Below are positions 14,940 to 47,581 of a stretch of DNA of 64,000 bases, in pieces. The stretch's first letter is position 1. Every line of letters begins with the position of its first letter. The DNA comes from Halorubrum sp. CSM-61. GTDB lineage: Archaea; Halobacteriota; Halobacteria; Halobacteriales; Haloferacaceae. Location of the stretch: contig NZ_RJJW01000002.1 of assembly GCF_003781945.1 (NCBI RefSeq), positions 378,205 through 442,204 on the forward strand, read 5' to 3'. The translations under genes were made by a program, and so were the position numbers. The notes below the pieces were generated by a model. The model had not been told where the DNA came from, made no database searches, and saw nothing but the letters and a program-made list of their open reading frames with translations.

Positions 14940-15317
14940 GTGGCGTCATCGAAACGGTCGCCGATTGCGACCACCGCCACCCATTGGGTCGTCGCGAGCG
15001 AATCGGGGGATGTGACAACTCGACTGCGCGTCCTCGACGACGGGGCGTGGATCTCCGTCAACGACGCCCGGGAAGTACGTGTCAGCGAACTGTGGCGCCT
15101 CGACGCGCCGGATCTGTGCGAGTGCGCGCTCAGCGATCTGGTCGTCGAGAACTTCCAGTCGGTCGGCGTCGACGGCCCGACGGTGGAGGTGCGAGTCTAC
15201 GGTCAGTGTATCGCGTGCGGGGTGTCGGGAACTACCGGCTGGATCCCCGTCGGGCGGGTACGCGGTGGCGAGTTCGCCGAACTCGACCGATCCGCGGTTC
15301 GCCGCGTGCGGCGGTGA
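14940..15317 (+). CDS. Cysteine-containing hypothetical protein
   Basis: A 125-residue protein with the GTG start at 14940, the only reasonable start before the conserved-looking core (HWVVASESGDVTTRLRVLDDGAWISVNDAREVRVSELWRLDAPDLCECAL). Two cysteine pairs, CEC (about residue 60) and CIAC (about 90), could bind a metal. I do not assign a function. It lies 92 bases before the siroheme reductase gene on the same strand, so a link to that enzyme is possible but unproven. Confidence 0.55.
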   Translation: MASSKRSPIATTATHWVVASESGDVTTRLRVLDDGAWISVNDAREVRVSELWRLDAPDLCECALSDLVVENFQSVGVDGPTVEVRVYGQCIACGVSGTTGWIPVGRVRGGEFAELDRSAVRRVRR

Positions 15318-15409
15318 GTGTAGCGGCAACACGTGCCAGATCGGTGGGGCACCGGGGAAGGTTGACGCCACGCCGTCAGCTATGTGGGCGTCGGGTGTAG
15401 GGGCTCTCG

Positions 15410-17212: not shown

Positions 17213-17258
17213 CGGTACCGGATCGCCCACTCCACGTGAACGCCGTCGTGGCCCGCAC

Positions 17259-17879: not shown

Positions 17880-18012
17880 GTGTAGTGACGCTGGACGGAG
17901 ATGTATAACCTCGTCGGACGGGGGCTCACGCTCTCGAAAGGGCGCTCCCAGTCGCCAATCCGATTTCGTCGCTGACCGGACGCGTCGAGATCACAATAAA
18001 CGCCGACTGCGA

Positions 18013-18192
18013 CTATCTATAAACGATGTGCGGTGGCGCGTGCCTGCGAGGCCGCACCGCGGTCGAGGCGAGCGGTTCGAGGAGGATGTCGATGACGTCG
18101 TTACAGCCGACGCCGAGCCCTCGGACGTCGTCGTCTTCCATCAGGTCGTAGGTCACGCGGTCCGGACGGCCGCTGTCGCGGACCGCCGCCGT
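18013..18192 (-). pseudogene. XdhC/CoxI-family remnant
   Basis: The minus frame reads VRDSGRPDRVTYDLMEDDDVRGLGVGCNDVIDILLEPL, which matches the core of XdhC-type molybdenum-hydroxylase maturation proteins (YDL-x-DDD-x-GLG-x-GC-G/N-x-ID-x-LLEPL). It is bounded by an upstream in-frame stop near 18190 and ends at 18013 after unrelated sequence, with no start codon or C-terminal Rossmann domain. It is a decayed fragment. The rest of 17880-18195 holds nothing else I can support. Confidence 0.6.
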
Positions 18193-18195
18193 CCG

Positions 18196-19119
18196 CTACC
18201 GCCCGCTGTCCAGGTACGGTTCACAGACGAGTTCGACACCCTCCTCGAAGCCGATCTCGGGCTCCCAGCCGGTGGCCTCGCGGAACGCCGCGTAGTCGGC
18301 CATGGTGTCGTGGACGTAGCCGTCGAAGGGGCACTCGACGTACTCCGGGTCGACGTCGGTGCCGAGCGCGTTGTTGATCAGCGCGACCATCTCGTTGAAC
18401 GAGTAGGCCTCTTGGGTGCCGACGTTGTACACGCCCGTCAGCTCGCGGTCGGCGGCGAGCTCGCAGGCGCGGGCCACGTCCGAGACGTGCGTGAAGTCGC
18501 GCGTTTGCGTGCCGTCGCCGAACAGCTCCGGGGCCTCGCCCGAGGCGATCTTGTCCGCGAACTGCGCCACCGTGTTGGCGTACTCGCCCTTGTGCTCCTC
18601 GTTGCCGGCGAACCCCTGGTAGACGGAGAAGAAGCGCAGGCCGGCCACGTTCATCTCGTGGTGGTTGGCGTAGTACTCGGCGTAGCGCTCGCGGGCCAGT
18701 TTGGAGGCCTCGTAGGCCGTGTGCGCCTCCACGTCCATGCTCTCGGGCGAGGGCTCGGTGCGGCTCCCGTAGATCGAGGAGGTCGAGGCGTAGACGACGG
18801 TGTCACAGCCCTCCTTTCGGGCGCGCTCGACCGCGTTGACGAACCCCTCGACGTTGACGCGACAGCCGCGCTGGGGGTCCTCCTCGTGCATGTTCCGCGA
18901 GGAGAGCGCGGCGAGGTGAAAGAGCACGTCGACGTCGGCGGGGAAGTCGTCGTCGAGGACCGACGCCTCGACGAACTCGACTTCGTCGTCGAGGTTCTCG
19001 GGCGTCCCGAGGTACGTGTCGTCGACCGCGATCACGTCGTTGTCGGCCGCGAGTCGGTTCGCGAGGTTCGAGCCGATGAAGCCCGCGCCGCCCGTGACGA
19101 GGACGCGTTTGTCCTGCAT
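18196..19119 (-). CDS. NAD-dependent nucleotide-sugar epimerase
   Basis: A 307-residue extended SDR enzyme. The Rossmann motif is VTGGAGFIGSNLANRL (residues about 8-23) and HLAALSSR is the NAD-binding loop. The catalytic Ser/Tyr/Lys are in YASTSSIYGSR and AYEASKLARERY, and the substrate side is FGDGTQTRDFTHVSDVARA. It belongs to the GalE/UDP-glucose 4-epimerase-like group; the exact sugar is not determinable. The start is the ATG at 19117-19119, giving MQDKRVLVTGGAG. Confidence 0.88.
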   Translation of the reverse strand: MQDKRVLVTGGAGFIGSNLANRLAADNDVIAVDDTYLGTPENLDDEVEFVEASVLDDDFPADVDVLFHLAALSSRNMHEEDPQRGCRVNVEGFVNAVERARKEGCDTVVYASTSSIYGSRTEPSPESMDVEAHTAYEASKLARERYAEYYANHHEMNVAGLRFFSVYQGFAGNEEHKGEYANTVAQFADKIASGEAPELFGDGTQTRDFTHVSDVARACELAADRELTGVYNVGTQEAYSFNEMVALINNALGTDVDPEYVECPFDGYVHDTMADYAAFREATGWEPEIGFEEGVELVCEPYLDSGR

Positions 19120-27206: not shown

Positions 27207-28430
27207 ATGTACGGAGTCGTGCTCGCGGCAGGCCGCGGGACCCGGATGCGACCGCTGACGGACCGCCGCCCGAAACCCCTCCTGCCGGTCGGAGACCGCT
27301 CGCTGCTCGAACGCGTGTTCGACACTGCCGCCGACGTCGTCGAGGAGTTCGTCGTCGTCACCGGCTACCGCGGCGAGGCGATCCGCGAGGCAGTCGGCGA
27401 GTCGTACCGGAGTCATCCGGTCCACTACGTCGAGCAGGCGGAGGCGCTGGGGACGGCTCACGCCGTCTTGCAGGCCGAGGCCGTCGTCGACGACGACTTC
27501 CTCGTGCTCAACGGCGACGTGGTCGTGGACGCGTCGCTCCCGCGCGCGCTCGCCGAGGCGGACGGGACGGCGGTCGCGGCGACCGAAGTGGCGGACCCGC
27601 GGGCGTACGGCGTGCTCTCGACCGCCGCCGACGGGTCGCTCGCCGGAATCGTCGAGAAGCCCGACGACCCGCCGACGACCCTCGCGAACGTCGGCTGCTA
27701 CGCGTTCGAACCCGACGTGTTCGAGTATATCGACAGGACACCCGAGAGCGAGCGCGGCGAGTACGAGATCACGACGACGATCGATCTCCTGCTCGGCGAC
27801 GGCCGCCGGATCGACGTGGCGCCCTACGACGGCCCGTGGCTCGACGTCGGCCGTCCGTGGGAGCTGCTGGAGGCCAACGAGCTGGCGCTCGCGGAGTTGG
27901 AGGAGTCGGACTGGTCGACGGACGCGGCGGTCGCCGGCGCCGTCGAGGAGGGCGTACACCTCCACGGACCGGTCGTCGTCGAGGAGGGGGCCAGGGTGCG
28001 GTCGGGCGCCTACGTGGAGGGTCCGGCGCTGATCCGCGAGGGCGCGGAGGTCGGCCCGAACGCGTACGTCCGCGGGTCGACGGTGGTCGGTCCGGGCGCG
28101 CACGTCGGCCACTCGGTCGAGGTGAAGAACTCGGTGCTCATGGCCGACGCGTCGGTCGGCCACCTCTCGTACGTCGGCGACTCCGTTCTGGGGCGGGGCG
28201 TGAACTTCGGCGCCGGCACGAACGTCGCCAACCTGCGGCACGACGACGCGAACGTCCGGGTGACCGTCAAGGGCGACCGCGTGGACACCGGCCGTCGAAA
28301 GCTCGGCGCGATCGTCGGCGACGGCGCCAAGACCGGGATCAACACGTCGCTGAACGCCGGCGTCAAACTGGGCGCGGGCGAGACGACCGGACCCGGGGAG
28401 GTGCTGACTCGCGATCGAGTGTCGGAGTAG
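27207..28430 (+). CDS. glmU: Bifunctional sugar-1-P nucleotidylyltransferase/acetyltransferase
   Basis: A 407-residue protein. The N-terminal nucleotidylyltransferase part shows LAAGRGTRMRPLTDRRPKPLLPV, LNGDVV, and VEKP. The C-terminal left-handed beta-helix includes VEVKNSVLMADASVGHLSYVGDSVLGRGVNFGAGTNVANLRHDD, which matches the GlmU acetyltransferase block containing the catalytic-His region. This supports UDP-N-acetylglucosamine synthesis from GlmM product. A second, more diverged copy lies at 38942. The accessory island begins directly after this gene's stop. Confidence 0.85.
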   Translation: MYGVVLAAGRGTRMRPLTDRRPKPLLPVGDRSLLERVFDTAADVVEEFVVVTGYRGEAIREAVGESYRSHPVHYVEQAEALGTAHAVLQAEAVVDDDFLVLNGDVVVDASLPRALAEADGTAVAATEVADPRAYGVLSTAADGSLAGIVEKPDDPPTTLANVGCYAFEPDVFEYIDRTPESERGEYEITTTIDLLLGDGRRIDVAPYDGPWLDVGRPWELLEANELALAELEESDWSTDAAVAGAVEEGVHLHGPVVVEEGARVRSGAYVEGPALIREGAEVGPNAYVRGSTVVGPGAHVGHSVEVKNSVLMADASVGHLSYVGDSVLGRGVNFGAGTNVANLRHDDANVRVTVKGDRVDTGRRKLGAIVGDGAKTGINTSLNAGVKLGAGETTGPGEVLTRDRVSE

Positions 28431-28460
28431 CTCAGAGCAACGTCGGCGCGACGGGCACTC

Positions 28461-28685
28461 TCAAGATGAGAGCGTCTCGGGCGCGAGACGTGTAACGACA
28501 CCGTCGAAGTCGTCGTCGAAGCTCAACACACAGTCGATATCGTGGTGTTCGACATGAGCGACCATCATCGCGTCGGTGAAGCTCAGCTCGTGTTCGGTTT
28601 CTCTCCGGTGTACTGCCACGGCACGATCGAACAGTGACGGCGGCGTGTACAGAAGCTCGATCGCGGAGGGATATCCCTCACCACC
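28461..28685 (-). pseudogene. VapC-type PIN toxin, C-terminal half only
   Basis: Encodes GYPSAIELLYTPPSLFDRAV...VHRRETEHELSFTDAMMVAHVEHHDIDCVLSFDDDFDGVVTRLAPE, nearly identical in pattern to the C-terminal half of the intact VapC at 42022-42474. Homology stops near 28685; beyond it the frame encodes unrelated residues, so the N-terminal PIN half, including the FVDTG aspartate, is missing. No antitoxin gene is adjacent. It is a broken copy, probably a leftover of recombination. Confidence 0.75.
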
Positions 28686-28712
28686 CGTTGGTCGAGAGGT
28701 GTTCGACGAGCT

Positions 28713-28838
28713 CGAAACGTGGCACCGAAGGTTTGGTGGCAAGGAGCCGACCGAGCGGTGAGATACGCGCTCTTTTCGCGTTCCGGGTTCACCGACGACT
28801 TGCGTCTCGTCGCCGCCGATCGGTCCGATTTATGGTAG
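28713..28838 (+). pseudogene. Possible ATPase (DUF234) C-terminal remnant
   Basis: A plus-strand frame reads NVAPKVWWQGADRAVRYALFSRSGFTDDLRLVAADRSDLW before a TAG at 28836-28838. The LFSRSGFTDDL block recalls the C-terminal DUF234 domain of archaeal AAA ATPases. There is no start and no ATPase core. It abuts the vapC remnant, so both are truncated at the same place. Homology is judged by eye only. Confidence 0.4.
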
Positions 28839-28940
28839 AGTAGTTCACTCAACTGGCGAGGACCCGCCAAATCACAACATCGGTGGCACGGCGATCAGGT
28901 CGCAGAGTACACATATACTATTTAAGTGAGTGAACCACCG

Positions 28941-28958
28941 CGTGGCTCATGAGCCACG
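28941..28958. repeat. Perfect 18-bp palindrome
   Basis: CGTGGCTCATGAGCCACG reads the same on both strands. It lies 12 bases beyond the 3' end of the DUF7344-type gene, so it may be a transcription end or a protein-binding site. No evidence decides between these. Confidence 0.5.
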
Positions 28959-28970
28959 AGATGAGTTCCG

Positions 28971-29369
28971 TCACTTCCTTCGTGGGGTGTCTGCGAGCGA
29001 CGATCCGGCAGTTGTGAGCGTGTACACCGCACCCGCGAACGCGGGGCCGGGGACGAACACATCTGACTGGTCGTCTGCAGACGCGATGACACCCGCCTGT
29101 TCGAGTGGCCCGAGGTGCGACCGTTTCAGATTCGTTCGAACAGTTCTCACGTGTGCGGTTGAGAGTGTCGTTCGTTCCGCGTCCGCTTCCAGAATGGCGA
29201 TCACCTCTGCGAGTTGTTGGAGGTGAACACGACTCCACGGTGCGAGTGCGAGTGTGAGCACGACAGCACGCTTGCGATGCTGGCTGAGTAGATAGAACAG
29301 ATCGGTTTTGCGGTACAGCGGGAGATCAGCAGGGTCACCGGGGCCATCGTACTGCTCTCCCTCACTCAT
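28971..29369 (-). CDS. DUF7344-type winged-helix regulator
   Basis: A 132-residue protein resembling haloarchaeal DUF7344 regulators. The stretch DLFYLLSQHRKRAVVLTLALAPWSRVHLQQLAEVIAILEADAERTTLS is the usual helix-turn-helix start, then VRTNLKRSHLGPLEQAGVIASADDQSDVFVPGPAF is the wing and beta part. Likely a DNA-binding regulator of neighbours. It overlaps the stop of the upstream small gene by 8 bases and follows it on the same strand, so they form a two-gene unit. Confidence 0.65.
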   Translation of the reverse strand: MSEGEQYDGPGDPADLPLYRKTDLFYLLSQHRKRAVVLTLALAPWSRVHLQQLAEVIAILEADAERTTLSTAHVRTVRTNLKRSHLGPLEQAGVIASADDQSDVFVPGPAFAGAVYTLTTAGSSLADTPRRK

Positions 29370-29655
29370 CGGATTGTCCTCGCTCGATCCTCATCAGCCG
29401 CAGATCGACGCGATCGATGACTTCACGCCCGACTGGTCGCCAGGTGCAGCCGGTCCACTCGTCTTCGAAACGCCACCATCCACGTCCAGTTTGTCGCGGT
29501 TCGAATCGAAACCGACGGCGCGGCCCGCTCTGGATCGTGAACCGAACCTCGAACCCAGACGTATACCTCGGGCGATCATCGGTCGCTGGATCAGACAGAC
29601 TGTACAACTCGTCGAGATCCACGCTCGTGGTGGATCGGGAGGTTTCTCTAGTCAT
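29362..29655 (-). CDS. Small basic/aromatic hypothetical protein, paralogue A
   Basis: A 97-residue protein with a core FTIQSGPRRRFRFEPRQTGRGWWRFEDEWTGCTWRPVGREVIDRVDL. A related protein at 31060-31341 shares the pattern RRRxRYxPRxGxxWxRxExxWxxxxWRxVxxxxVxxxD, so the pair are paralogues. Function unknown; the pattern (Arg/Trp-rich beta strands) could suit nucleic-acid binding, but that is speculation. The ATG at 29653-29655 is preferred over an upstream GTG at 29691. It overlaps the DUF7344 gene start. Confidence 0.55.
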   Translation of the reverse strand: MTRETSRSTTSVDLDELYSLSDPATDDRPRYTSGFEVRFTIQSGPRRRFRFEPRQTGRGWWRFEDEWTGCTWRPVGREVIDRVDLRLMRIERGQSDE

Positions 29656-29724
29656 ACCTCGCGGGAGGGACTGTCGAGTTATCTCCCGCACCGCTATCGG
29701 GGGATAGAAACCAGTCTGCGACGG

Positions 29725-30180
29725 CTACCTTTCAGGGAGATCAATGTCGTCAGGCACAAGCGAAAATCCTAGTGTTCTGAAATCACTGTCGAAGGCAAAG
29801 ATGTGTTCAATATCGTGCGTATCTGCGAGAACACTACTTGTGTGATCCACAAATGAAATGTCTTGGTCATCGTAATCCACAAACTGCTCTGTTGCGGTCT
29901 CAAAAGCGGATTTGCTAGCCGGAACGATATTCACACTATCAGAATTCCGGATCGCAGTGAGTGCTCTCGTCGCAGTGTCATGGCCGAGCTTGTAGAGGGC
30001 TAATGTCGCGAACTCAGAGAGAACAGCTTGAGACGTGAATATAGGTCGATAAGACAATTTCCCCGTCTGAATGCCGTTAAAAAATCGAATTGTCTCTTCG
30101 TGGTGAGTGTCATTTTGATCAGCTCGGGCATAGAATGCGCCAGTATCGATGAACACTGGCGTCGCGCTTACGGTATTCAT
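29725..30180 (-). CDS. PIN-domain toxin (VapC-like)
   Basis: A 151-residue PIN ribonuclease. It has an early VFIDTGAFYARADQND (first acidic residues), a middle LSEFATLAL, and a C-terminal QDISFVDHTSSVLADTHDIEHIFAFDSDF with the later acidic set. Such toxins cut tRNA or mRNA unless neutralised. The ATG overlaps the stop of the HTH gene (ATGA at 30177-30180), the typical antitoxin-first order. Its amino-acid sequence differs from the VapC at 42022, so they are distinct PIN families. Confidence 0.8.
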   Translation of the reverse strand: MNTVSATPVFIDTGAFYARADQNDTHHEETIRFFNGIQTGKLSYRPIFTSQAVLSEFATLALYKLGHDTATRALTAIRNSDSVNIVPASKSAFETATEQFVDYDDQDISFVDHTSSVLADTHDIEHIFAFDSDFRTLGFSLVPDDIDLPER

Positions 30181-30533
30181 GCTGATCGCTTGCCATACAA
30201 GATTTCATCGACGTTTTCGGAAACATCCGATTTTCCCGAAGCGCCTGGTTTGAAGTTCCAGATTGGATCGTCTGGGTTGATTTCTTGTTCAGATTCCTGT
30301 TCGTTAATTTTCCACCACACAACCCTTCCTGCAGTCTTTCGACTTGCAACCTGCTCTTGATCTTCGAGTGTACGAAGCTTTCGGCGGGCGGTTTCTCGTG
30401 AGCAGTCAAGCGCATTTGCAACATCACCAGAAGTCACGACGGGTCCGTCTACTCTCGTGAATACACCAAGTACATCTTCAAGTATGACTCTCTCTGTGAA
30501 TCGGCCGGTGTCTTCTCGCTTGTCGTTGCTCAT
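30177..30533 (-). CDS. HTH-type antitoxin for PIN toxin
   Basis: A 118-residue protein with a winged helix in the N-terminal half (VILEDVLGVFTRVDGPVVTSGDVANALDCSRETARRKLRTLEDQEQVASRK). Its C-terminus, SDVSENVDEILYGKRSA, resembles the C-terminal tail of the VapB antitoxin at 42471 (DEDDIDEILYG). That suggests a DNA-binding domain joined to a toxin-neutralising tail, with autoregulation of the operon. The ATG at 30531-30533 is used. Function as antitoxin is inferred from the overlap with the PIN gene. Confidence 0.7.
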   Translation of the reverse strand: MSNDKREDTGRFTERVILEDVLGVFTRVDGPVVTSGDVANALDCSRETARRKLRTLEDQEQVASRKTAGRVVWWKINEQESEQEINPDDPIWNFKPGASGKSDVSENVDEILYGKRSA

Positions 30534-30655
30534 ATCGCAGGTACGCTCCAACAAGGGATAATCCTTGTGGTGTTCCCAACACGGGAATACCACGTGGTCC
30601 TGTCGAACACCAGTGGTCTGCAGGAAGTGCAAAAAAGGACCCACGACACGTCCTA

Positions 30656-31063
30656 TTGCATGTGAGCCCCCGAACATTCCGACAGGCGGTATTCGAGGAG
30701 ATGGACCCTGAATGTCTCCTCTGTGGACGATCGCCAACAGATGGGTACGAGCGGAAGCAATCGCTGTCTGTCCATCACGTGAATGGCGACGACACCGACA
30801 ACCGTCCCAAAAACGGGATCCTTGTCTGTCAAAGCTGTCACGTCCACATCCATCGCACCGATGAACCGCCGTATCGCAAGTGGCATCGACAACTCCCAAT
30901 CGAACACCGCCACGTCTGGAACCAGCATACAGAACTTTCATACACTGGCCCACGACTCACTCGGGAACAGGCCGAACGCCTCTACGGTGATGAAGGTGGA
31001 ACGCCGGAGGCGGTCCGGTATTTCGATCCGGATGACGAACGCGATCCGAGCGTGCGTGACTAG
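30656..31063 (+). CDS. HNH endonuclease
   Basis: A 135-residue zinc-containing nuclease. It has CLLCGRSP (C-x2-C), the HNH core SLSVHHVNGDDTDNRPKNGILVCQSCHVHIHR, then RQLPIEHRHVWNQHTELSYTGPRLTREQA. The paired cysteines and the HH...N...H arrangement are classic. The start is TTG 30656 or GTG 30662; no ATG fits well before residue 16. It is convergent with and slightly overlaps the small hypothetical at 31060. It could be a mobile-element or defence nuclease. Confidence 0.75.
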   Translation: MHVSPRTFRQAVFEEMDPECLLCGRSPTDGYERKQSLSVHHVNGDDTDNRPKNGILVCQSCHVHIHRTDEPPYRKWHRQLPIEHRHVWNQHTELSYTGPRLTREQAERLYGDEGGTPEAVRYFDPDDERDPSVRD

Positions 31064-31341
31064 CGCTCAACGGGTGGTCGAGCCCACTGATCGAGGGCTG
31101 TGACTGTCCGCTGGGTGACACGGCGCCAGTCGTGTGACTCCCAACGTTCTTCGATCCGACACCACGACTCGCCGGCTCGTGGCACATATCGGATGCGACG
31201 CCGTGTTCCTGACTCGTCAGTAAACTCCGTGATTTGTTCGTATCGACCGTTCGGCGTCATCGCCTGTTTCGGTACTGCTGTACTCTGGGGTTCACACCGC
31301 TGTGTTGGAGCCGACTTCGACTCTGTATAGGGCTGATTCAT
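31060..31341 (-). CDS. Small basic/aromatic hypothetical protein, paralogue B
   Basis: A 93-residue protein with core GTRRRIRYVPRAGESWCRIEERWESHDWRRVTQRTVTALDQ, paralogous to the protein at 29362-29655 by the shared RRRxRxxPR and WxRxExxW patterns. The start is the ATG at 31339-31341; a GTG 18 bases upstream is also possible. The N-terminal 35 residues are unlike its paralogue. Function unknown. Confidence 0.5.
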   Translation of the reverse strand: MNQPYTESKSAPTQRCEPQSTAVPKQAMTPNGRYEQITEFTDESGTRRRIRYVPRAGESWCRIEERWESHDWRRVTQRTVTALDQWARPPVER

Positions 31342-31517
31342 TGGTAGTCTCGGAGGCACTGATGAACAACCTCCACAATCTCTGGGTGATAAAAATCAAT
31401 CTGGAGCTCACTGGACCTCACTTACGGTCGGAATCCGACTGGTGATCGATGGCAATTGATTCTGTACTGGACAGGAAATCATTCAGAACTAGAGACCCCC
31501 ACTTTGGGAGTCTGTCG

Positions 31518-31547
31518 TCGACACACTACCCTCCGATAGTGTGTCGA
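31518..31547. repeat. Inverted repeat in an array of ACACACTA boxes
   Basis: An 11-bp stem (TCGACACACTA / TAGTGTGTCGA) with an 8-base loop. The octamer ACACACTA recurs at 31612-31619 and, inverted, at 31559-31566, giving four copies within 100 bases, next to the palindrome CACTAGTG (31556-31563). This could be an operator or replication-related array. The surrounding 31342-32603 holds no other convincing gene except a possible small zinc protein at 31944-32060. Confidence 0.5.
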
Positions 31548-31943
31548 TCACGTCCCACTAGTGTGTGGAGATACCACCCCAACGACCACTAAATCATCCC
31601 CCGGTGGGCTGACACACTACCGATACCCGACTGAATATAACAATCATCATGGCTGCACACAGGTATTGTGAGAAACCGGATTGCCGTCGGCCACCACGGA
31701 GGGGAGTCCCATCGGTCGAGACCACCTGTTCAGACGGCGACAATTGATCGACATATCTCCCATTGGAGATGGTATCGCCAGACATCCCGAAACTCCCAAT
31801 CGCTCAGATCGACACCCACCGATCACACCGTCTGACTCGCCGACCAGTCCAACTCTGATCGGTGTCGCTTCTCTCATGACGACCCATCGCTGTCGCGCTT
31901 GACCAAGACGAGACCACAAGGGTGATCCGACCACCCAAACAGG

Positions 31944-32060
31944 TCACCCCGAATTAACACCCATTACTACCCGAATCGTCTTGGAGAGAAGGTCCAAACG
32001 CTCGTGGTGGTTTCCACAGATCGCACAGTAGGTGGGACAGCTTTCATCTTCACTCGACAT
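31944..32060 (-). CDS. Candidate zinc-finger micro-protein
   Basis: A 38-residue ORF (MSSEDESCPTYCAICGNHHER... ending VVMGVNSG). The cluster C-x3-C-x2-C-x2-HH could bind zinc, and small CxxC proteins are frequent in haloarchaea. It is short, lies in a gene-poor stretch, and has no neighbours to support it. Confidence 0.4.
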   Translation of the reverse strand: MSSEDESCPTYCAICGNHHERLDLLSKTIRVVMGVNSG

Positions 32061-32603
32061 ATACTGATCAGATAGATTTTGCAGATCGATTCGCCGGTTG
32101 GATCCGATTACGAATACCGTCCACACCCAAGTTGACCCGGACGATCACTCCCACTCCGATCACGATCTACTCCGAGACGAATTTGCTCTCTGGTCGTCTA
32201 GTGAATGGTCTCACACTGACTCAGGTCTCCCCTCTCGATCATCGGTCCCGGTCTCTTACACAGTGTATCATCAGTTCAGATATGATCTTCTGTGGGGTCT
32301 CCCCCTGGCGTAGTTGGTTGGTGTGTTTTCTCACCTTTAGTGGCTGTATTATTAGTATATTCAGTCGGATCAGCCTAGTGTGTCGTCTTTGCGTCTTGCG
32401 ATTTACTATGTAGTACTGTGGTACTGAAACAGACTGCAACACGGTAGGGTGTGATGGTGAATCTAGTACAGTCCGGTTGTATTCTGCGAGTCATTCCACA
32501 GTTATCAGATGTTTTGAGCAGCGCCAACGACGGCTACCACATCTCACCTATCCGCCCTGAAAAGTGCGCCTTCCATCTCGAATGGTCCGTACGCCCAGAC
32601 ACC

Positions 32604-33395
32604 TTACCAGCACCGCAGTCGGTGTCCACGCAGGGGGATGAGCCGACGGGTCAGTCCGACACTCACAGCGGTAAAGCCAGTGACGCCGGCCCACGTCAGC
32701 CAGTATGCACGAAGTAGCATCCCATCATCAACAGGGTGTCCCTCGAATAGCTGTGCGAGTATCGTGAGTGTGCCGAGCGCGAAGACGATCAGACAGAGAC
32801 TTCCAGTCAGGATCTCGTTTCGGAATAGCTGTCGCGTCACGCCACGGAATCCGTCTGTTGGCCACGCCAGCGGGAGCCTACGCCACAGCCCCCGAGTCGA
32901 CTGCTTGAATTTCTGGACGGTCGTAGCTGACCGGTTGTCGACGTGCTCGGTGAAGACGCTGCCGAGTTCACGGTGCGGCATCATCAACTGGAGATATTGA
33001 GCAGATCCCTCGTTCGTGAGAAGCCCGGTGTGTCGGAGCTGCCACAGTCGATCACGGAGTTGGTGTTCACTCAGACGTCCCTCACAGAGCACGCGGAGAT
33101 CTTCGACCGTGTACAACTCACCGCGGACGTCTCGGGTCTTTCGACGGGTCGCCGTCTCCAGTTGCATGAGGTGATACACAGCAAGCGGTGAGAGTGACTC
33201 GCGATTGTGGAGGCGTCGTGCCGGTATCGCCGATGGGTATTCGAGCGGTTCGTGTTCGGTGTCATATTCGTTGAACGCCTCGATCCGTCGCTGATCTGCC
33301 GGGCAGAGCAACCGATCCGAGTCATGCTGGTAGTGGTTCTCGATGGTGACCGTGTTCTCATCGTCCGGCGGCGGAGAGCGGTTGTACTTGTGCAT
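32604..33395 (-). CDS. Hypothetical protein with wHTH-like region and two TM helices
   Basis: A 263-residue protein. The middle (YHLMQLETATRRKTRDVRGELYTVEDLRVLCEGRLSEHQLRDRLWQLRHTGLLTNEGSAQYLQL) resembles a winged helix. The C-terminus has two hydrophobic stretches (LTGSLCLIVFALGTLTILAQL and RAYWLTWAGVTGFTAVSVGL) separated by a short loop, indicating membrane anchoring. A membrane-tethered DNA-binding or sensing protein is possible. Not recognised as a named family. It lies in the island with no operon partner. Confidence 0.55.
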   Translation of the reverse strand: MHKYNRSPPPDDENTVTIENHYQHDSDRLLCPADQRRIEAFNEYDTEHEPLEYPSAIPARRLHNRESLSPLAVYHLMQLETATRRKTRDVRGELYTVEDLRVLCEGRLSEHQLRDRLWQLRHTGLLTNEGSAQYLQLMMPHRELGSVFTEHVDNRSATTVQKFKQSTRGLWRRLPLAWPTDGFRGVTRQLFRNEILTGSLCLIVFALGTLTILAQLFEGHPVDDGMLLRAYWLTWAGVTGFTAVSVGLTRRLIPLRGHRLRCW

Positions 33396-33512
33396 TAGTT
33401 TTCTCTTTCAGCCAATAATAATGAATATTATTCGGCATATCTGAAATTTTGGAACAGTGAACATGTTTTGAAGGCTCTGTTAGAACCCGTTTCTTCAGAT
33501 ACGATACAGTTT

Positions 33513-33704
33513 GACATCCTCCCCGCCCTGAAGGGGGAGGTTTTAGGTGGTTGTTCACTCCCCCATCCCACATCGTGCGTACGAACCCGGTATCGTCTCT
33601 TCGGACCTCGTTCGGCAGGCGAGAAGTTGCTAATGGGGACGCGGGACCGGCCCGCTGTCCCACACTGGGATCCTCGCGCTTTAGCGCGGGATGGTTGTCA
33701 AAAC
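33513..33704. mobile_element. Miniature IS200/IS605-like element
   Basis: Two hairpin ends about 190 bases apart enclose no transposase. The left end is CATCCTCCCCGCCCTGAA then GGGGGAGG, the right end is TCGCGCTTTAGCGCGGGATGG followed by TTGTCAAA. These match the hairpin ends I recall for haloarchaeal IS200/IS605-type elements, so this looks like a non-autonomous derivative (MITE). The boundaries are approximate. Confidence 0.6.
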
Positions 33705-33859
33705 AGCACCAAGATCGTAGGTCCTCCGTGTCCTACACACACTAATATATATCTTCCGGCCATCACGATGCGATTCGACCTGCGGCGCGCTGTTTTATAA
33801 GGCGATTCCCTCACAGCGAATGCCACAATCGGAGACACCACCCCACGACTGTGGCATCG

Positions 33860-34465
33860 ATGAACGACCACAACACACCGCTTATGCAATCACACAACCC
33901 CACGCCGTTCCTGTTTGAACCACAGGAGACGCACCGCCCGGACTCACAGCGACACTCCTCGTCACCGGGTGAGGTACAGATACTTGCAGATGACACAGAC
34001 GCCACCTTCACCGAGTTAGCGGATCCGTCTCACGATGCACTCGTGGACGCCATCCGCGAGTGTGAAGCTTCGTCTGTTCGGATCTACGCCGAGACGACTG
34101 CGGACGGCACACACCTCATCGCCACTCTCTGTCGGGATCCGATCAGCTACGAGTCGCGATTCAGGGTGTATAGCCACGAACACGGACCGTCGATGCCGAT
34201 CCTGGCGACGACTCAACACACGGGGACGCTCGAGCGATATGAACGCGCACTCGAGTGGTTCCTCGAGGCGTTCACCGTCACGGAGGACGGCGCAGTCACG
34301 GACACAGCGCCCTTCGAGCATCGCTTCGAAACGTGGACACAGAACGTGTTCGGTGCTGCCAGTCCGAATCGGACGTGGATCGGTCGCATCCTCGCCGGCG
34401 AGTCTCGTATCGAGCGAACGCCTGAGACGATCGAGGGGATCCGCTGGCGCGAACACGCCGACTAG
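33860..34465 (+). CDS. Hypothetical protein, first gene of an unknown cassette
   Basis: A 201-residue protein from the ATG at 33860 (a GTG at 33851 is also in frame). N-terminal 40 residues look disordered (MNDHNTPLMQSHNPTPFLFEPQETHRPDSQ); the rest looks globular (SVRIYAETTADGTHLIATLCRD...ALEWFLEAFTVTEDGAVTD...TWIGRILAGESRIERTPETIEGIRW). No family recognised. The next gene starts nine bases after its stop, so they are probably co-transcribed. A TATA-like TTTTATAA lies at 33792-33799. Confidence 0.6.
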   Translation: MNDHNTPLMQSHNPTPFLFEPQETHRPDSQRHSSSPGEVQILADDTDATFTELADPSHDALVDAIRECEASSVRIYAETTADGTHLIATLCRDPISYESRFRVYSHEHGPSMPILATTQHTGTLERYERALEWFLEAFTVTEDGAVTDTAPFEHRFETWTQNVFGAASPNRTWIGRILAGESRIERTPETIEGIRWREHAD

Positions 34466-34474
34466 AGGACACGC

Positions 34475-36580
34475 ATGTCCGACACTGCTCGCGACCCACC
34501 CACACGCCCGTTGTTTTGTCGAGCGACTGCCGTCGAACTCCTCCCCTGTGGCGTCGATGACGCGTCGTACCGACTCGATCAGGATCTCGGGACGCCACTC
34601 GTAGAGAGTGTCGAACGCACACTCGAGGAGACGAACGGATCGGTCGAGTTGTTCTGTGTGAGCCGCCCGACGTACACTGGGGTAATCGCCACCGCGACAC
34701 CACAGCGTCCACACAACACCGGACGAGCCGCACCGAACCGATCGGCCGATACTGCATCGGCGACTGACACGCTGTGTGAGGAGTTCTCCGAGACGCTGCC
34801 GGCGTGGATCGGCCTCGTTCGCGGTCCCCTTTCTCTGGACGCGCTCGGGTACGCCCCGCTGCGGACGGCGCGTGTGGTCGCGACGGATCGGGCTGCGGGC
34901 TCGTCGCTCGGTGGGGCACTCACCGAACTGTTAGACAGCAACCACCAGCGCGGGATCACGACGATCACACAGCTGCTGATCACAACAGGTGCGGACGGTC
35001 GCTTCGAGGTGACGCTTCGCGTCGGCGAAGCCACCGGTCGGCCACAACCGCTCGGTCGGCACGCGCTCACAGCGACCGTCGACGCTCCCGAACCGGACGG
35101 ACTGGCACGCGTTCTTCCGACCGGCCTTCGATCCAGTCGGACGCTGGCCGCTGATGCGTGGACGACACGGCCCTCTCGGTTGGAACCAGAGGACACGCGG
35201 TCGGTGCTTCACGCGAGAGCGGCCGACGACTGGCGGCTCCACAGGCGATCACGCCGACAGATCCCAGACGGCTCGCCTGCCGACCGCCGACGGTTAGCGC
35301 TGCTCACGAGCGGCGATGAGTACGACGCACTGTTGGCTGGCCAGCCAGCCACGGCGCTGTATGACCCGCTCGCTGTCGAGCCCACGCTTCGGTTGGATGC
35401 ATCTGGACTGCGATCGGTACTCGCTGTCGTTCCGCTGTACTCGGGGTGTCGCTGGCCGGGATCACGTCGGTCGCTCGCTGTCGAGCCAGAGACCGTCCTG
35501 TCGACGCCCGTGGGATCGCCAGCCCCCGACACACGCGACGAACCGACGGGTGGTGAGATCGATTCTGTTCGGTCGCAGCCACCGTCGCTCACCGCGATGG
35601 CCACTCGATGGCTGACCGAAGCCGGCTGTGCGGTGACTGTGGCCCCTGATCGAACGTGGGGAGAACCACAGCTCACGGGCGCACCAGCGGGAGCGACGAC
35701 GCCAGTCGTCATCGTGGATCCAACTGCCACACGTGCGGAGACGCCGATCGAGACCGCCGGCGAGCTACTCTTGGCTGCCAACCAGGCGGTACAGGCGGGC
35801 GAACGACTCTTCGTCGTCACGCCCTCGAAAGCGGCCGCACACTGGGCCACTGACGTCCTCGCGGTCCCGTTCATTCAAAGCGAGACGGCGACACGTGTGG
35901 CCACGCTTCCGGCTCCCGTCACAGACACCCGCGGTGGTATCGTTCTGACGGGCACGAGGAACCCGCCCCGCTGGACGGTCGACGCTTGTGGCACACGCCG
36001 ACTCACGAGCGGCGATCGATGTCTCGCTGAAAGCCCGTGTCACCGCTCGCCTGCATCGCTCACATATGCGGCCTCGCGTGCCGTGGTTGATGGCCCGCAC
36101 GTGACGGTCATCCATCCCGACGGAGCCACCGAATCGTATGCGTCGATGACCGCCTGTCGCGAGCAGTATCGGGTCGTTCGGTGGCCCATCGAACCCGTTC
36201 GGCCGACGTTTCTCGGATCGGTGACGGTCGTGTATCGTGATGGACACCGCTTTCGCACGCTCACACCGCGTCGGCGGTGGGACGCGCCGTGTGGACTCGA
36301 CACGGATCTTGAAGCGGCGATTGGAACCTTCATCGACCGCTACACCGTCCCGTCGACGACGCCACTCGGTCGGCCATCGTTCGAGCGAACGCTCGACCGC
36401 TGGCTACACCACCAGATACCGTGTCAGACACCGAATGTCTCGTTGGGAGGGCAGTTACCACACGGTATCGATGCGATACGAACGGACGGCGGCCGTCTCA
36501 CGCTCCAACACCGGTCGTGGCGAGTGCCCGCTCCATCGGCGACCCAGGCGCTGTGTACGACGCCGTCAGACCAGTCATAA
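34475..36580 (+). CDS. Large hypothetical protein, degenerate paralogue of next gene
   Basis: A 701-residue soluble protein not recognised by family. Its second half matches the next protein in layout: a nuclease-like region (about residues 385-450: TPIETAGELLLAANQAVQAGERLFVVTPSKAAAHWATDVLA) aligns by eye with TKPAKLLTNLARAVTHGYSVIIVTPSRGDARQ. Its end (FIDRYTVPSTTPLGRPSFERTLDRWLHH, about 620-650) aligns with FIEQMTVESDGDTIRLQTLRQVFLKWY. The E-x-E...K set seen in the other protein is missing here. It is preceded by the small gene and followed 16 bases later by its partner. Confidence 0.6.
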   Translation: MSDTARDPPTRPLFCRATAVELLPCGVDDASYRLDQDLGTPLVESVERTLEETNGSVELFCVSRPTYTGVIATATPQRPHNTGRAAPNRSADTASATDTLCEEFSETLPAWIGLVRGPLSLDALGYAPLRTARVVATDRAAGSSLGGALTELLDSNHQRGITTITQLLITTGADGRFEVTLRVGEATGRPQPLGRHALTATVDAPEPDGLARVLPTGLRSSRTLAADAWTTRPSRLEPEDTRSVLHARAADDWRLHRRSRRQIPDGSPADRRRLALLTSGDEYDALLAGQPATALYDPLAVEPTLRLDASGLRSVLAVVPLYSGCRWPGSRRSLAVEPETVLSTPVGSPAPDTRDEPTGGEIDSVRSQPPSLTAMATRWLTEAGCAVTVAPDRTWGEPQLTGAPAGATTPVVIVDPTATRAETPIETAGELLLAANQAVQAGERLFVVTPSKAAAHWATDVLAVPFIQSETATRVATLPAPVTDTRGGIVLTGTRNPPRWTVDACGTRRLTSGDRCLAESPCHRSPASLTYAASRAVVDGPHVTVIHPDGATESYASMTACREQYRVVRWPIEPVRPTFLGSVTVVYRDGHRFRTLTPRRRWDAPCGLDTDLEAAIGTFIDRYTVPSTTPLGRPSFERTLDRWLHHQIPCQTPNVSLGGQLPHGIDAIRTDGGRLTLQHRSWRVPAPSATQALCTTPSDQS

Positions 36581-36596
36581 TACCGATCACCAATTC

Positions 36597-38894
36597 ATGG
36601 CAACAAAACCGATAGACGAGATACGAACCCCATTCGCACAGCGAACAGACAGCGATCAGATCCTTGGTCCCGGTCGGATCTGGTGTGTTCGGATCATGCT
36701 CCCGGGTCACAGCGATCCGGACCTTCGAACAGCGACGGCGTTTCCAATGGACGGCATCGTCGAGGAGATCCTCGAGGACATCCCGGCGCTTGCAGCCGTC
36801 GAACAACTGACTGCCCCCGGAGCGATACAACAGGAACACTTCCTGGTCGGCTACTCGAACGATCGCAACCACGAACGAGCCATCGAGAAGGCGCTCGGCA
36901 ACCAGGGAAAGCCCGTCACGGCGTACGGAGAGGGAGCGAGCGCGACGCCCACCACGAAGGGACGAGCCCCCTCGTCGATCGCCTCCAAAATGCATGAGAT
37001 TGTCAAATCGGGGATCCCGGACAATATCAAAACGCAGCTCTGTCAAGTCGATCTCACGCCGCTGGGACTGCTCCCCCGTCCGACCTCGCGGGTCCTGTTA
37101 GCCGAGAACATGCATCTCACACGGATCGATACGGTCGGCCAGAGTGCTCTCGTTTCGCTCGTCCGAACGCTCAACGCGCGGCGGATGCCGTATCTCCACG
37201 GGACGCTCCTCACGCGAGCGGGCAGTAGCGGGAGCCACGACTACCTCGGGGCCTCCCGACTCGTCGTGTTCGGAACAGATAACGGAATCGTCACCGACGA
37301 CGACGTCCGGACGTACGCCGAGACGGTCGATGAAGACTTTCGGATCTCGACGTATTTCGGCACCCACGTCCGCGACAATTTCGATCTCCCTGTCGAGAGT
37401 CATCACACGTACGCCACCAACGCGACCTCGCATCCGTCGCCAGTCGAGCAGATGGACGATCAAAGCATTCGACAGTCCACGATACGCGATCTTCAGTCCG
37501 GCTTCACCGAGTATCGAAGCCTACTCAACGGGCAGATGAACGCCGACCAGCGGTACCGACAGCTGTTCGGCTGCTACGGCGTGTTGCGGCTTCGGAGCTG
37601 TGATCTGATCAACTTCTTCGCTGTGATCCCGGCGTACTTCGACGTCTCCCCGTGGGGACGCGCGATGACGGCGTCACCGATCGGGGTGTCGGTCGTCGAC
37701 TTTGATGAACCACTTGCGGGGACCCGACACAGCTTCGGGACCGAACACCCCGGTGACACGACACGCTCTCTACAGAACACGAACGAAGAATCGATACCCC
37801 ATCAAGAACTCGTCTCCGACTGGGCCCTCTCGCTCATCCGCAACGGTCACGAAATCCTCGCGATCGATCAAGACGACGTCGATATTGACTTTCCCGAGGA
37901 CGAAGATCCGACCGAGACGACCTTCTTCGATGACGCATCACGACCGGATATCGTGAGTCGGAAAGACGGGCGCATATACTGTCATGAGATCGAATACGGA
38001 AACAAAACGAAGCCAGCAAAGCTGTTGACGAATCTCGCACGCGCTGTGACACACGGGTATTCGGTCATCATCGTCACGCCGTCGCGAGGGGATGCCCGTC
38101 AAAAGTACATCAACGAAAACGACCCCGACCGGTTGGGGCCACTGCTCGAATCGTATCGTGATGTCGATGCTAATGGCGTGATCTGCTATACGCTGAATGC
38201 GACCGTTCAGCCGTCTGAAGACGTGACGATGCTGCTTCCATCCGGGACAGACACGTCTCGCTGGCGTCGGACGCCCGACGATCGCCACGAACTGATCGTC
38301 GACGGTGACGTCGTCGCCGAGGGGCCAGCCGATGAGAGCGTCGACACGTATTCTTACACCTGTCCGCGGGTGTACGAACGGGGCTCCGGGTACGTTCTCG
38401 AGTCTGCCTCGGGCGAAGTCATCCGCGAACAGCCGACAAAGGACGCTGCGAGCGGTGATCTCACGCCGATCCGAAAGCCGTTCCCGATCCTCAAGCGGCA
38501 TCATCTCACACAGACGACCGTCATGTACAAATCAGGAGATCAGTTCACCGAGTTCGCGTACCAACCCGAGTGGGCGCTCACGTACCAGAGCTCCAACTCG
38601 CGACGGTACGAAGCGGCTGCGAACGCGTTCATCGAACAGATGACTGTCGAATCAGACGGCGATACGATCCGGCTTCAGACGCTGCGGCAGGTGTTCCTGA
38701 AGTGGTATACAGCCCAGACGGATCTGAATTCGCCGAATGACACGTGGTTCGGCCGCGCAGTTAACGCCAGCTACGACGTTGACGACAGTGACACGCATAA
38801 CAAACGCTTAGAGAATCGGACGTTCCGGTTCTCGAACGACGTGGTATCGCCAGATCTGCCGTTCGTCGATGACGAGGGAGATATCGATATGTGA
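36597..38894 (+). CDS. Large hypothetical protein with PD-(D/E)XK-like motif
   Basis: A 765-residue soluble protein. The N-terminal half is unfamiliar. Around residues 449-480, RPDIVSRKDGRIYCHEIEYGNKTKPAKLLTNLARAV gives the D...E-x-E...K spacing of PD-(D/E)XK nucleases, followed by the strand YSVIIVTPS. The C-terminal domain (about 620-765) has helices and conserved Trp/Phe (FIEQMTVES...LRQVFLKWYTAQ) that could be a winged helix. Its partner gene precedes it by 16 bases. Nuclease activity is a hypothesis. The gene ends 47 bases before the next core gene. Confidence 0.6.
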   Translation: MATKPIDEIRTPFAQRTDSDQILGPGRIWCVRIMLPGHSDPDLRTATAFPMDGIVEEILEDIPALAAVEQLTAPGAIQQEHFLVGYSNDRNHERAIEKALGNQGKPVTAYGEGASATPTTKGRAPSSIASKMHEIVKSGIPDNIKTQLCQVDLTPLGLLPRPTSRVLLAENMHLTRIDTVGQSALVSLVRTLNARRMPYLHGTLLTRAGSSGSHDYLGASRLVVFGTDNGIVTDDDVRTYAETVDEDFRISTYFGTHVRDNFDLPVESHHTYATNATSHPSPVEQMDDQSIRQSTIRDLQSGFTEYRSLLNGQMNADQRYRQLFGCYGVLRLRSCDLINFFAVIPAYFDVSPWGRAMTASPIGVSVVDFDEPLAGTRHSFGTEHPGDTTRSLQNTNEESIPHQELVSDWALSLIRNGHEILAIDQDDVDIDFPEDEDPTETTFFDDASRPDIVSRKDGRIYCHEIEYGNKTKPAKLLTNLARAVTHGYSVIIVTPSRGDARQKYINENDPDRLGPLLESYRDVDANGVICYTLNATVQPSEDVTMLLPSGTDTSRWRRTPDDRHELIVDGDVVAEGPADESVDTYSYTCPRVYERGSGYVLESASGEVIREQPTKDAASGDLTPIRKPFPILKRHHLTQTTVMYKSGDQFTEFAYQPEWALTYQSSNSRRYEAAANAFIEQMTVESDGDTIRLQTLRQVFLKWYTAQTDLNSPNDTWFGRAVNASYDVDDSDTHNKRLENRTFRFSNDVVSPDLPFVDDEGDIDM

Positions 38895-38911
38895 GTGGAC
38901 ACCGCGTGCAA

Positions 38912-45129: not shown

Positions 45130-46326
45130 ATGCCGGAGGCCGAGGATATCTTCGAAACCGGGGACGTGTTCAGGGATCGACAGCTCGTTCGCGTGGGGCA
45201 CGTGCCTGAACTGGATCGCGTCGTCGGTCGAGACCGGGAGATCGAGGCTGTCGGTAGCGCGCTCGCACCGGCAATCCACGGTGGGCCGCCCGAGACCACG
45301 ATCGTCTACGGGAAGACCGGCACCGGAAAGTCACTCGTTGCGAGGTGTGTGATTCGTGAAGGACGACGACAGGCCGCCGAAAACGGCCACACGCTGGCCT
45401 CGGCGTATGTCGACTGCTCCGACTACGGGACGGAGACGCAGGCGAGTCGAGAGATGGCTCGTGGTCTTCAGTCGACACTCGGCGAATCGGCGGCTGATAC
45501 ATCGATTCCACGAAAGGGGATCGCCGCGGCAGATTATCGGGATATCACGTGGGAACTGCTCGCAGCACACGACGTCGACGCATTCGTCGTCGTGCTCGAT
45601 GAGATCGACAAACTCGAAAGCGACGATCTGCTTCGGAGTCTCTCCCGTGCCCGTGAGAGCGGAAAGTCCGACACGATGATCGGCGTGATCTGTATCAGCA
45701 ACAAGATCGAGTACCGCGACCGACTCGACGAACGAGTCGACTCGTCTCTCCAGGACAACGAACTCGTCTTCGACCCGTACGACGCCACCCAGCTCCGGTC
45801 TATCCTCGATCACCGCCGGGACGCCTTCGCCGAGGGAGTTCTCGAGGAGGGCGTCATCTCGAAGACCGCGGCGCTCGCCGCGCGCGAGCACGGTGACGCC
45901 AGAAAGGCCATCGACGTCCTCTATGAGGCCGGCCGCCTCGCTGAAAAGGAAGGCGGCGAGATCGTCACCGAAGCGCACGTCGACGCTTCCCTTAAAAAAG
46001 CGGAGATCAACCGGTTTCAGCGGCTCGTGGGGGGGCAGACCCCCCACGTGAAACACATCCTCCGCGCGCTTGCGTTGTTGACTGCGGAGACGGAGGGCAC
46101 GCAGTTTCGTACTGCGGAGGTGTACGACGCCTACGAGAACGTCGTTACGCAAACGGAATCGTCTCCACTGAGCTACGATCGAGTCCAGCGACTCCTCAAA
46201 GAACAGGCGTTTTTGGGGATCACCGAGAGCGAACACACCGGTGGTGGCCACGGTGAAGGGAGCTATCGCGTCCACCGGCTACTCCGATCCCCGGAGGTCG
46301 TCGTCGAGGCACTCGACCGCAACTAG
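45130..46326 (+). CDS. orc1: Orc1/Cdc6 replication initiator
   Basis: A 398-residue AAA+ initiator. Walker A GKTGTGKS (residues 61-68), Walker B AFVVVLDEIDKL (about 153-164), sensor region VICISNKIEYRDRLDERVDSSL with the arginine-rich tail, and a C-terminal winged helix (about 300-398). It binds the adjacent repeats to unwind the origin and load the replicative helicase. Many haloarchaea carry several orc genes, each with its own repeats, so this origin may be secondary. A TnpB element begins right after its stop codon. Confidence 0.92.
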   Translation: MPEAEDIFETGDVFRDRQLVRVGHVPELDRVVGRDREIEAVGSALAPAIHGGPPETTIVYGKTGTGKSLVARCVIREGRRQAAENGHTLASAYVDCSDYGTETQASREMARGLQSTLGESAADTSIPRKGIAAADYRDITWELLAAHDVDAFVVVLDEIDKLESDDLLRSLSRARESGKSDTMIGVICISNKIEYRDRLDERVDSSLQDNELVFDPYDATQLRSILDHRRDAFAEGVLEEGVISKTAALAAREHGDARKAIDVLYEAGRLAEKEGGEIVTEAHVDASLKKAEINRFQRLVGGQTPHVKHILRALALLTAETEGTQFRTAEVYDAYENVVTQTESSPLSYDRVQRLLKEQAFLGITESEHTGGGHGEGSYRVHRLLRSPEVVVEALDRN

Positions 46327-46342
46327 TGAACTCACCCCGGGG

Positions 46343-47581
46343 TCAATCCCCGAGGCTTCCTGCTTCAACGACGCGCTTTGCATCCACACGCTCTCGCTGA
46401 GGTGTGAACGTAGGGAGCGCAGTCTGCACAGGCGTTGATTCGGAGCGTCCCGCCCCTAACTGATTCAAACCGCGAGTGAGAACGTTCTTCGCCGCGTTGA
46501 GGTCGCGGTCTTCAGTATGGCCACACGCCGGACACGAATGCTCGCGAACCCAGATTGGCTTATCCGTTTCGACGCCACAGGACGCGCACTCTTTCGTCGT
46601 CCCGCGAGGTTCGACCGCCTCAACGTGCGTGCCGTGCAATTCACCTTTGTACTCCAACAACTCGATGAATCGCGACCACGCGGCGTCTTGCTTGTTTTTC
46701 GCGTTCTGGCTGGTTTCCAGCATGGGATTCACGTCCAAGTCTTCGACAGCCACGACATCGTACTCTTGGACGAGCCACGTCGTGAGTTTGTGCTGGTAGT
46801 CTCGCACCTTTCGCTTGATCGCGCGTTTGGCTCGGGCCACTTGTTGTCGTTGTTTCTCCCAATTGTTTGAGCCGTGTTCTTTTCGGGCAAGTTTTCGCTG
46901 TTCGCGCGCGTAGCGGTCGTACTCATCTGTCAGGTCAAGCGTATCCACGGACAGGTTTTCCGAGGTGTGGATGTAGCTGGTGATGCCAAGGTCAACACCG
47001 ACACAGTCTTCGGGGTCAATCTCGCCCAGTGACGGTTTCACGGGTGTGCCTTCTACAGAGGTCACCAGTGAGACGTACCATTCGCCCGTGGTCTCTTTTT
47101 TCAGGATAACCTCATCAATGTCCTGTGCCGCTGGGACTGTGCGGTCTGCGCGGATTTTGAACCAGCCGATCTTTTCGAGGCGGAGCCGCACGAATCGGCC
47201 GTCGCCCGTGTTGTGATCCACGTTGTAGCGACGGGATTGATTGTACGACACCGACCGAAATTCACCCGCGCCTTGCCACTTCAACCGTCCGACGTTGTAG
47301 CCTTTATTTCGGCGTTCTTTCAGTGTTTCCAGATCGCTATGTATCTGGCTGATGGCCTGTTGTGCGGCGTGTCGGGAGGGTTCCGCAAAGGTCGGCCATC
47401 GGTCTGCCCATTCGGTGAGTTTGCCGTGCTGGTCATAGTCAGATGGCCGGTCGTTGTAGTCCGAATTGTAGTAGTCTCGGACGGCGTGGTTGCGAATCTG
47501 TCGGAGGGTGTCGATCTGGTGCCACGCTTCGCTCGCCACGTCGTTGTGTAGGTATGCGCGGAAGCGTAGCGCGTGTTTCAT
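46343..47581 (-). CDS. tnpB: TnpB RNA-guided nuclease (IS1341-type)
   Basis: A 412-residue TnpB. RuvC acidic residues are in GVDLGITSY (D), AVEDLDVNPM (E) and EDRDLNAAKN (D); the zinc-finger ligands are ECASCG...SCPACGH. An N-terminal OrfB_IS605-type region opens MKHALRFRAYLHNDVASEAW. It is full length, so it could be active, with the guide taken from the sequence beyond the right end. Most TnpB copies act in element maintenance. It follows the AbrB-like gene by five bases. Confidence 0.93.
   Translation of the reverse strand: MKHALRFRAYLHNDVASEAWHQIDTLRQIRNHAVRDYYNSDYNDRPSDYDQHGKLTEWADRWPTFAEPSRHAAQQAISQIHSDLETLKERRNKGYNVGRLKWQGAGEFRSVSYNQSRRYNVDHNTGDGRFVRLRLEKIGWFKIRADRTVPAAQDIDEVILKKETTGEWYVSLVTSVEGTPVKPSLGEIDPEDCVGVDLGITSYIHTSENLSVDTLDLTDEYDRYAREQRKLARKEHGSNNWEKQRQQVARAKRAIKRKVRDYQHKLTTWLVQEYDVVAVEDLDVNPMLETSQNAKNKQDAAWSRFIELLEYKGELHGTHVEAVEPRGTTKECASCGVETDKPIWVREHSCPACGHTEDRDLNAAKNVLTRGLNQLGAGRSESTPVQTALPTFTPQRERVDAKRVVEAGSLGD

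Follow-up and report, generated by a model that had tools for sequence, protein, structure and literature searches.

What do three consecutive genes at the edge of an accessory island in Halorubrum sp. CSM-61 encode, and on what DNA might their products act? The genes, here called S, A (protein P0002) and B (protein P0003), lie in a row on the plus strand of the window, that is, the whole stretch of 64,000 nucleotides that was analysed. They are separated by 9 bp (S–A) and 16 bp (A–B; Table 1). None of the three proteins matched an entry in Pfam, NCBIfam, PADLOC or PHROGs, no meaningful sequence match was obtained in the PDB, and no PADLOC anti-phage defence model was matched. Hits of P0003 to PTPS_related and Erm37 in family look-ups were insignificant and were dropped.

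Table 1. Coordinates of the S-A-B genes, their domains and predicted site residues, the surrounding island, and haloarchaeal ATPases that carry the same nuclease module (L numbers denote other loci).
Feature	Position	Strand	Description
S	33860..34465	+	201 aa; N-terminus without assignment, C-terminal RFX/D5-type winged-helix domain common to A and B
A (P0002)	34475..36580	+	pseudo-nuclease paralogue of 701 aa with, in order, a VirB4-like N-terminal domain, a degenerate PD-(D/E)XK-like region, a beta-rich domain and a C-terminal domain
B (P0003)	36597..38894	+	765-aa predicted nuclease
B, domain 1	residues ~20-373		VirB4-like N-terminal domain
B, domain 2	residues ~395-500		PD-(D/E)XK-like
B, domain 3	residues ~520-630		beta-rich
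B, domain 4	residues ~668-746		RFX/D5-type winged helix
B, predicted nuclease site	H402, D451, E464, E466, K472
Divergent 263-aa protein	32604..33395	-	probable winged helix in the N-terminal part; C-terminal segment hydrophobic, predicted to be a membrane helix
Accessory island	28427..38900		10.5 kb; S-A-B operon at its right end
ATPases with nuclease tail, examples	L051 8572-13011; L074 108-4508; L079 4876-9162		haloarchaeal
VirB4/TraC-type gene, then nuclease-tailed coupling protein	L079 1223-9162; L080 923-8879; L078 2725-8023

The A-B pair and the small protein S

A and B are paralogous from end to end. Profile–profile comparison with hhalign gave a probability of 100 and an E value of 7.7e-64 over 664 columns at 17% identity. 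The initial annotation, made from the letters of the window, had seen a likeness in the nuclease-like and C-terminal regions; this holds over the full length. Neither of the outcomes that it had set against its own reading, a lack of likeness between A and B or a match to some unrelated family that is well known, arose.

In a tblastn-type search, 22 of 170 genomes of the family contained relatives of B, and many of these genomes had several. Gene calling in 20 fetched loci yielded 37 proteins of a single cluster; most loci have two of them, side by side on the same strand. The tree of these 37 proteins splits into two clades, one P0002-like (A) and one P0003-like (B), and each locus contributes one of each. 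All 21 full-length A genes found with an A profile in 16 genomes adjoin a B gene on the same strand. The co-occurrence in other haloarchaea that the annotation had proposed to look for is thus borne out for A and B. Across 19 loci the tree of A mirrors that of B: their distance matrices correlate with r = 0.934, a value reached by none of 20000 permutations. Both genes of every pair lie on one strand; A precedes B in one group and follows it in the other. Such co-divergence also reflects the common vertical history of linked genes; it therefore supports a lasting unit and not, by itself, a physical complex.

A contig scan of genomes with P0003 alone returned nothing, while the clade alignment recovered eight named loci. 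Named loci with the pair belong to Halorubrum, Halovenus, Halobiforma and Natrialba, and the two-gene layout is the same in at least four haloarchaeal families. At the level of the order, 11 of 293 genomes, from four families, were found to have a full-length B. The nuclease module is far more widespread, occurring in 125 of the 293 haloarchaeal genomes and in 51 of 78 genera. Searches of the plasmid and phage collections gave no match, and scans of viral contigs with three clade alignments gave no match.

Strict pairing and co-divergence would suit a toxin–antitoxin-like or abortive unit, in which a toxic nuclease B is held inactive by A (or S), as would the richness of the islands in toxin–antitoxin genes. 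However, A is a full-length paralogue of 650–760 residues, unlike a small antitoxin. The inverted gene order in the second clade and a few loci where B seems to lack an A partner (L036 and L053) also speak against such a unit, which we regard as improbable. At four further loci (L044, L050, L056 and L058) the A partner seems to consist of the C-terminal half only, with the pseudo-nuclease and the winged helix; in L050 it lies on the opposite strand.

Homology of S to the C-terminal domain of the two large proteins spans its last ~80 residues (hhalign P = 5.6e-11), hence S is related to the pair; it matches positions 641–724 of the B HMM with an E value of 1.8e-7. S stands directly 5' of A in only 4 of ~26 pair loci (the window, L085, L087 and L088) and by itself elsewhere in L092 and L088. 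We therefore consider S optional. The small third partner first proposed for the two large proteins is real as a gene order in those four loci, but not as an obligatory component. Just upstream of S in the window (33510–33702) lie 31-nt inverted repeats, 77% complementary and 131 nt apart, with TTTGACA...TGTCAAA ends. The segment resembles a miniature IS200/IS605- or TnpB-type element.

Nuclease-site residues and selection

The active-site constellation of the PD-(D/E)XK superfamily, D...(D/E)-x-(K/E)...K, is present in B. Residues H402, D451, E464, E466 and N479 are found in all 20 B proteins that cover the site. K472 is kept in 18 and replaced by R in one more (K/R in 19 of 20), and R482 is also invariant in B. 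The equivalents of H402, D451, E464, E466, K472 and N479 are absent in 15 of 15 A proteins. The initial annotation had noted D...E-x-E...K in the 765-residue protein and its lack in the 701-residue one, and had proposed an active/inactive pair of paralogues; the catalytic columns, kept in 20/20 B and 0/15 A, and the profile–profile paralogy back both statements. Judged from these residues, B is likely a DNA-cutting nuclease and A its catalytically dead twin. The model of B residues 395–510 has low pLDDT; it places helix, strand, strand and helix in the expected order, without a structural match in that part.

For seven pairs of relatives, dN/dS was 0.19–0.33 for A and 0.13–0.24 for B. A is under purifying selection despite the loss of its catalytic residues. 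These values bear on whether the locus is a decaying ATPase–nuclease remnant that is kept by hitch-hiking and has no present function. Some loci are indeed broken (a fragment in L035; disrupted frames in L042, L048 and L056), as decay would predict. Yet purifying selection acts on both genes, the active site of B is conserved, and at least four haloarchaeal families share the two-gene layout, so that we find this explanation highly improbable.

Domain architecture and ATPase relatives

The initial annotation could assign the large proteins to no known family. Relatives do exist: they are haloarchaeal ATPases of the HerA, VirB4 and type IV (T4) coupling-protein types, from which A and B differ by the missing ATPase. 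In profile comparisons with the tails of these ATPases, the C-terminal half of B gave an E value of 9.5e-25 and that of A 9.2e-8. One of them, in L051, is a HerA/T4SS-type ATPase of 1479 aa. Past its motor it carries a segment with homology to the B nuclease (E = 4.5e-26) and a Pox_D5 domain, here above the cut-off; the homologous ATPase tails in general score with Pox_D5. In L078, L079 and L080, the B-type nuclease module forms the end of TrwB/TraG-domain coupling proteins, directly downstream of VirB4/TraC-type genes.

The ATPases are built from an N-domain, the motor, the nuclease, a beta-rich domain and a winged helix, with Walker A at residues 424–611 in those frames that were checked. 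A and B have the same order minus the motor. No P-loop ATPase (Walker A/B) was matched by Pfam in P0002 or P0003, and in the models a short linker of low confidence joins the N-half to the nuclease.

The structure models are mediocre, with a mean pLDDT of 64 for B and 67 for A, and the nuclease region is poorly modelled. The best match of B, over residues 15–373, was to the N-terminal domain of the VirB4 protein TrwK, with a Z score of 10.9 (223–236 residues). For A, TrwK/VirB4 was matched over residues 10–327 with Z = 9.2 and an ESX-3 component with Z = 9.8; such values of 9–11 are only slightly above the typical background of 7–8. Foldseek against the PDB gave no significant match and no E value below 0.04. 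Structural matches to FAD oxidases (Z ~5–6) were dropped, as they lie below the VirB4 matches and reflect a common arrangement. Structure prediction, proposed earlier as a check on the two proteins, delivered a match of both models to TrwK but none for the nuclease region of B.

Profiles of the N-terminal domains were also compared with one another. Against the N-domains of 16 haloarchaeal ATPases, the joint A+B profile scored 39.3 (P = 2.7e-4), whereas 40 column-shuffled controls reached at most 18.9. With separate profiles the match was weak (probability 14%), and it exceeded the controls only with the joint profile. A false Walker motif set the cut in part of these 16 N-domains, an error that should make the score lower rather than higher. 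From the models and profiles we conclude with moderate confidence that A and B carry a VirB4-type N-terminal domain.

At the other end, B residues 668–746 matched RFX5 (Z = 8.8), RFX1 (Z = 8.0) and the ASFV PrimPol (Z = 7.6), and the C-terminus of B is accordingly modelled as an RFX-like winged-helix fold. A PDB sequence search with A returned only the designed beta-propeller proteins Cake and Scone-E, with E values up to 0.002 in an alignment of 27 residues within the beta-rich part; we took this as a match of composition. The beta-rich part of A may be propeller-like or have another beta fold.

The homology of the C-terminal halves to HerA/VirB4/coupling-protein ATPase tails, together with the VirB4-like N-half, makes A and B look like such ATPase–nucleases with the motor removed. 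We infer that the motor was lost in A and B, and not gained by their ATPase relatives.

Genomic setting and proposed role

The island is flanked by an NTP-transferase gene that ends near 28426 and by glmU-glmS from 38901. In at least five genomes of the same genus these flanking genes lie 9–20 bp apart (139 bp in L146), so the stretch between them in the window is an insertion. B stops 6 bp short of its right edge. The same site holds other cargo in further genomes, ~7 kb in L145, L150 and L152 and a vapB-like gene in L147. No terminal repeats of the island were recognised by eye. The cassette had been described as part of an island with toxins, and it does lie in an accessory island with toxin-type genes whose site is empty in those at least five genomes. 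Just past glmU-glmS, the window has an Orc1/Cdc6 gene (45130–46326) and a TnpB-type transposase gene (46343–47581).

Four kinds of neighbour recur at 27 pair loci, at distances of up to 7 kb: TnpB-type genes at 14 loci, an Mrr-nuclease operon at 10, HNH at 8 and Orc1/Cdc6 at 7; Fic, AbiEi, HepT, MazF and PIN genes are scattered among the neighbours. A hand count in 16 genomes placed 12 of the 18 full-length Mrr copies no more than 14 kb from an A-B pair. The Mrr operon, found in L041 (7290–11838) and also in L040, L042, L031, L032, L034 and L037, encodes an HTH-like protein of ~105 aa, a zinc-finger-like protein of ~157 aa, an HVO_A0261_N protein of ~939 aa, a protein of ~85 aa and an Mrr_cat protein of ~217 aa. 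It is possibly a separate defence-type system. In L031 (1800–5759), and likewise in G115:C146, G107:C26 and G131:C12, a full Mrr_cat gene is followed by several tandem partial 3' copies, reminiscent of silent cassettes or orphans.

In 10 pair loci, including the window, layout and hydropathy show a divergent gene as the nearest upstream neighbour, with a product whose C-terminus is hydrophobic. These proteins fall into three sequence groups without detectable mutual homology, and only those of L040 and L041 have Pfam support (HTH_DeoR) for a winged helix. A fourth component or a regulator is a possible role for them.

The fetched loci have no T4SS genes beside the pairs, except for one HerA-type ATPase in L036. 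There (12975–18970), the ATPase, which by eye has a different restriction-like tail, is followed by an NrS-1-type primase, and a lone B lies 2 kb away in divergent orientation. We rejected a split motor–nuclease pair for this locus, as it is a single case with the two genes 2 kb apart and divergent, and with a different tail on the ATPase. A search for oriT or iteron repeats in the upstream regions near eight loci found nothing conserved or shared.

Our best explanation, in which we have middling confidence, is that S-A-B encodes a nuclease of two subunits, carried by the island, and that A and B descend from haloarchaeal conjugation/HerA-type ATPase–nucleases without having kept the motor; the most likely role is interference with mobile DNA. 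In this mechanism, A and B would form a hetero-oligomer through their N-terminal domains, with A as a scaffold or gate. DNA would be bound by the winged helices (and by S at loci that have it) and cleaved or nicked by B. The targets would be incoming mobile DNA, whether conjugative elements, plasmids or viruses. By one possible route, A-B would engage or co-assemble with a homologous transfer motor, and the pair of each locus would recognise particular elements.

The same architecture could serve transfer. B might be a relaxase-like nickase and A and S accessories of a relaxosome, so that the island or a resident element borrows co-resident transfer machinery and docks through the VirB4-like domain. 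The fusion of the nuclease module to T4 coupling proteins directly downstream of VirB4-type genes, its wide spread in haloarchaea, and the presumed DNA-binding domain shared by S, A and B all favour such a mobilisation module. So does the literature, in which archaeal conjugative plasmids have no known relaxase homologue (PMC9905601), and MOBC, one bacterial relaxase family, consists of PD-(D/E)XK-related enzymes (PMC12857230). Against it, the pairs in the fetched loci lack accompanying T4SS genes, no conserved repeat or oriT-like element was found in the upstream regions examined, and plasmid-borne copies were not found. Moreover, P0003 has no match to the MOBC profile PF13814 (Replic_Relax) at E values up to 1, and no match above the cut-off was obtained in 21 haloarchaeal genomes. 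Mobilisation is the foremost alternative, although we think it rather unlikely.

Of the two roles on the DNA of mobile elements, interference appears the more probable. It is favoured by the patchy, multi-copy, island-borne distribution and the lack of transfer genes beside the pairs, as well as by the empty island site, the Fic, AbiEi, HepT, MazF, PIN and Mrr-operon neighbours, and the absence of matches in the plasmid, phage and viral-contig searches. A point against is that winged helices and the Orc1/Cdc6 neighbours at 7 of 27 loci fit a replicon or mobile element equally well. The function in defence or in a mobile element that was suggested at the outset may hold.

A broader idea unites the two settings of the module. 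The nuclease of B and of the coupling-protein tails could be the missing archaeal equivalent of a relaxase, and A-B its free-standing forms, in which the dead twin controls nicking for self-transfer of the island or for attack on elements that rely on the same chemistry. The appeal of the relaxase reading lies in the unfilled place in archaeal conjugative plasmids and the PD-(D/E)XK kinship of MOBC cited above; as a whole we rate this idea doubtful. The nuclease tail of coupling proteins beside VirB4 genes is a candidate relaxase substitute in conjugation loci.

If the best explanation above is right, S-A-B is a previously unannotated haloarchaeal system made of two protein families without a Pfam, NCBIfam or PADLOC entry, in which a conjugation/HerA-type ATPase–nuclease has been recycled without its motor and paired with an inactive copy. 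It would also offer a testable candidate for the acknowledged archaeal relaxase gap (PMC9905601). In a literature search that covered few subscription journals, we found no published description of the A-B pair or of the nuclease tail of haloarchaeal coupling proteins.

Among known systems, the closest are the haloarchaeal HerA/VirB4/T4 coupling-type ATPases. Their nuclease, beta-rich and Pox_D5/RFX-type domains are homologous to those of A and B and stand in the same order, they share with B the signature H...Q...PD...E-x-E...K/RP...N, and their N-domain is distantly related. In contrast, A and B lack the P-loop ATPase, have a dead second copy beside the active one, and have no adjoining VirB4 or coupling-protein gene in the fetched loci. 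TrwK of R388 is the structural match to the N-terminal domain of both models, at ~8–11% identity; unlike it, A and B have no ATPase and have a nuclease and a winged helix appended. The MOBC relaxases (TraX of pAD1 and MobC of CloDF13) are PD-(D/E)XK-related and set a precedent for such a nuclease in conjugation (PMC12857230), but no profile similarity to B is detectable and no oriT was found at the A-B loci examined. NurA–HerA and TdtA/NurA-like systems associate a nuclease with a motor of the HerA family, for repair in archaea and for transjugation in Thermus (PMC9905601, PMC5365140). NurA, however, is an RNase H-fold nuclease, whereas that of A-B is PD-(D/E)XK-like and its motor is missing. 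PifC and Osa, products of accessory genes for fertility inhibition, target rival coupling proteins (PMC5696584); by functional analogy only, they provide a model for how A-B might interfere with mobile elements.
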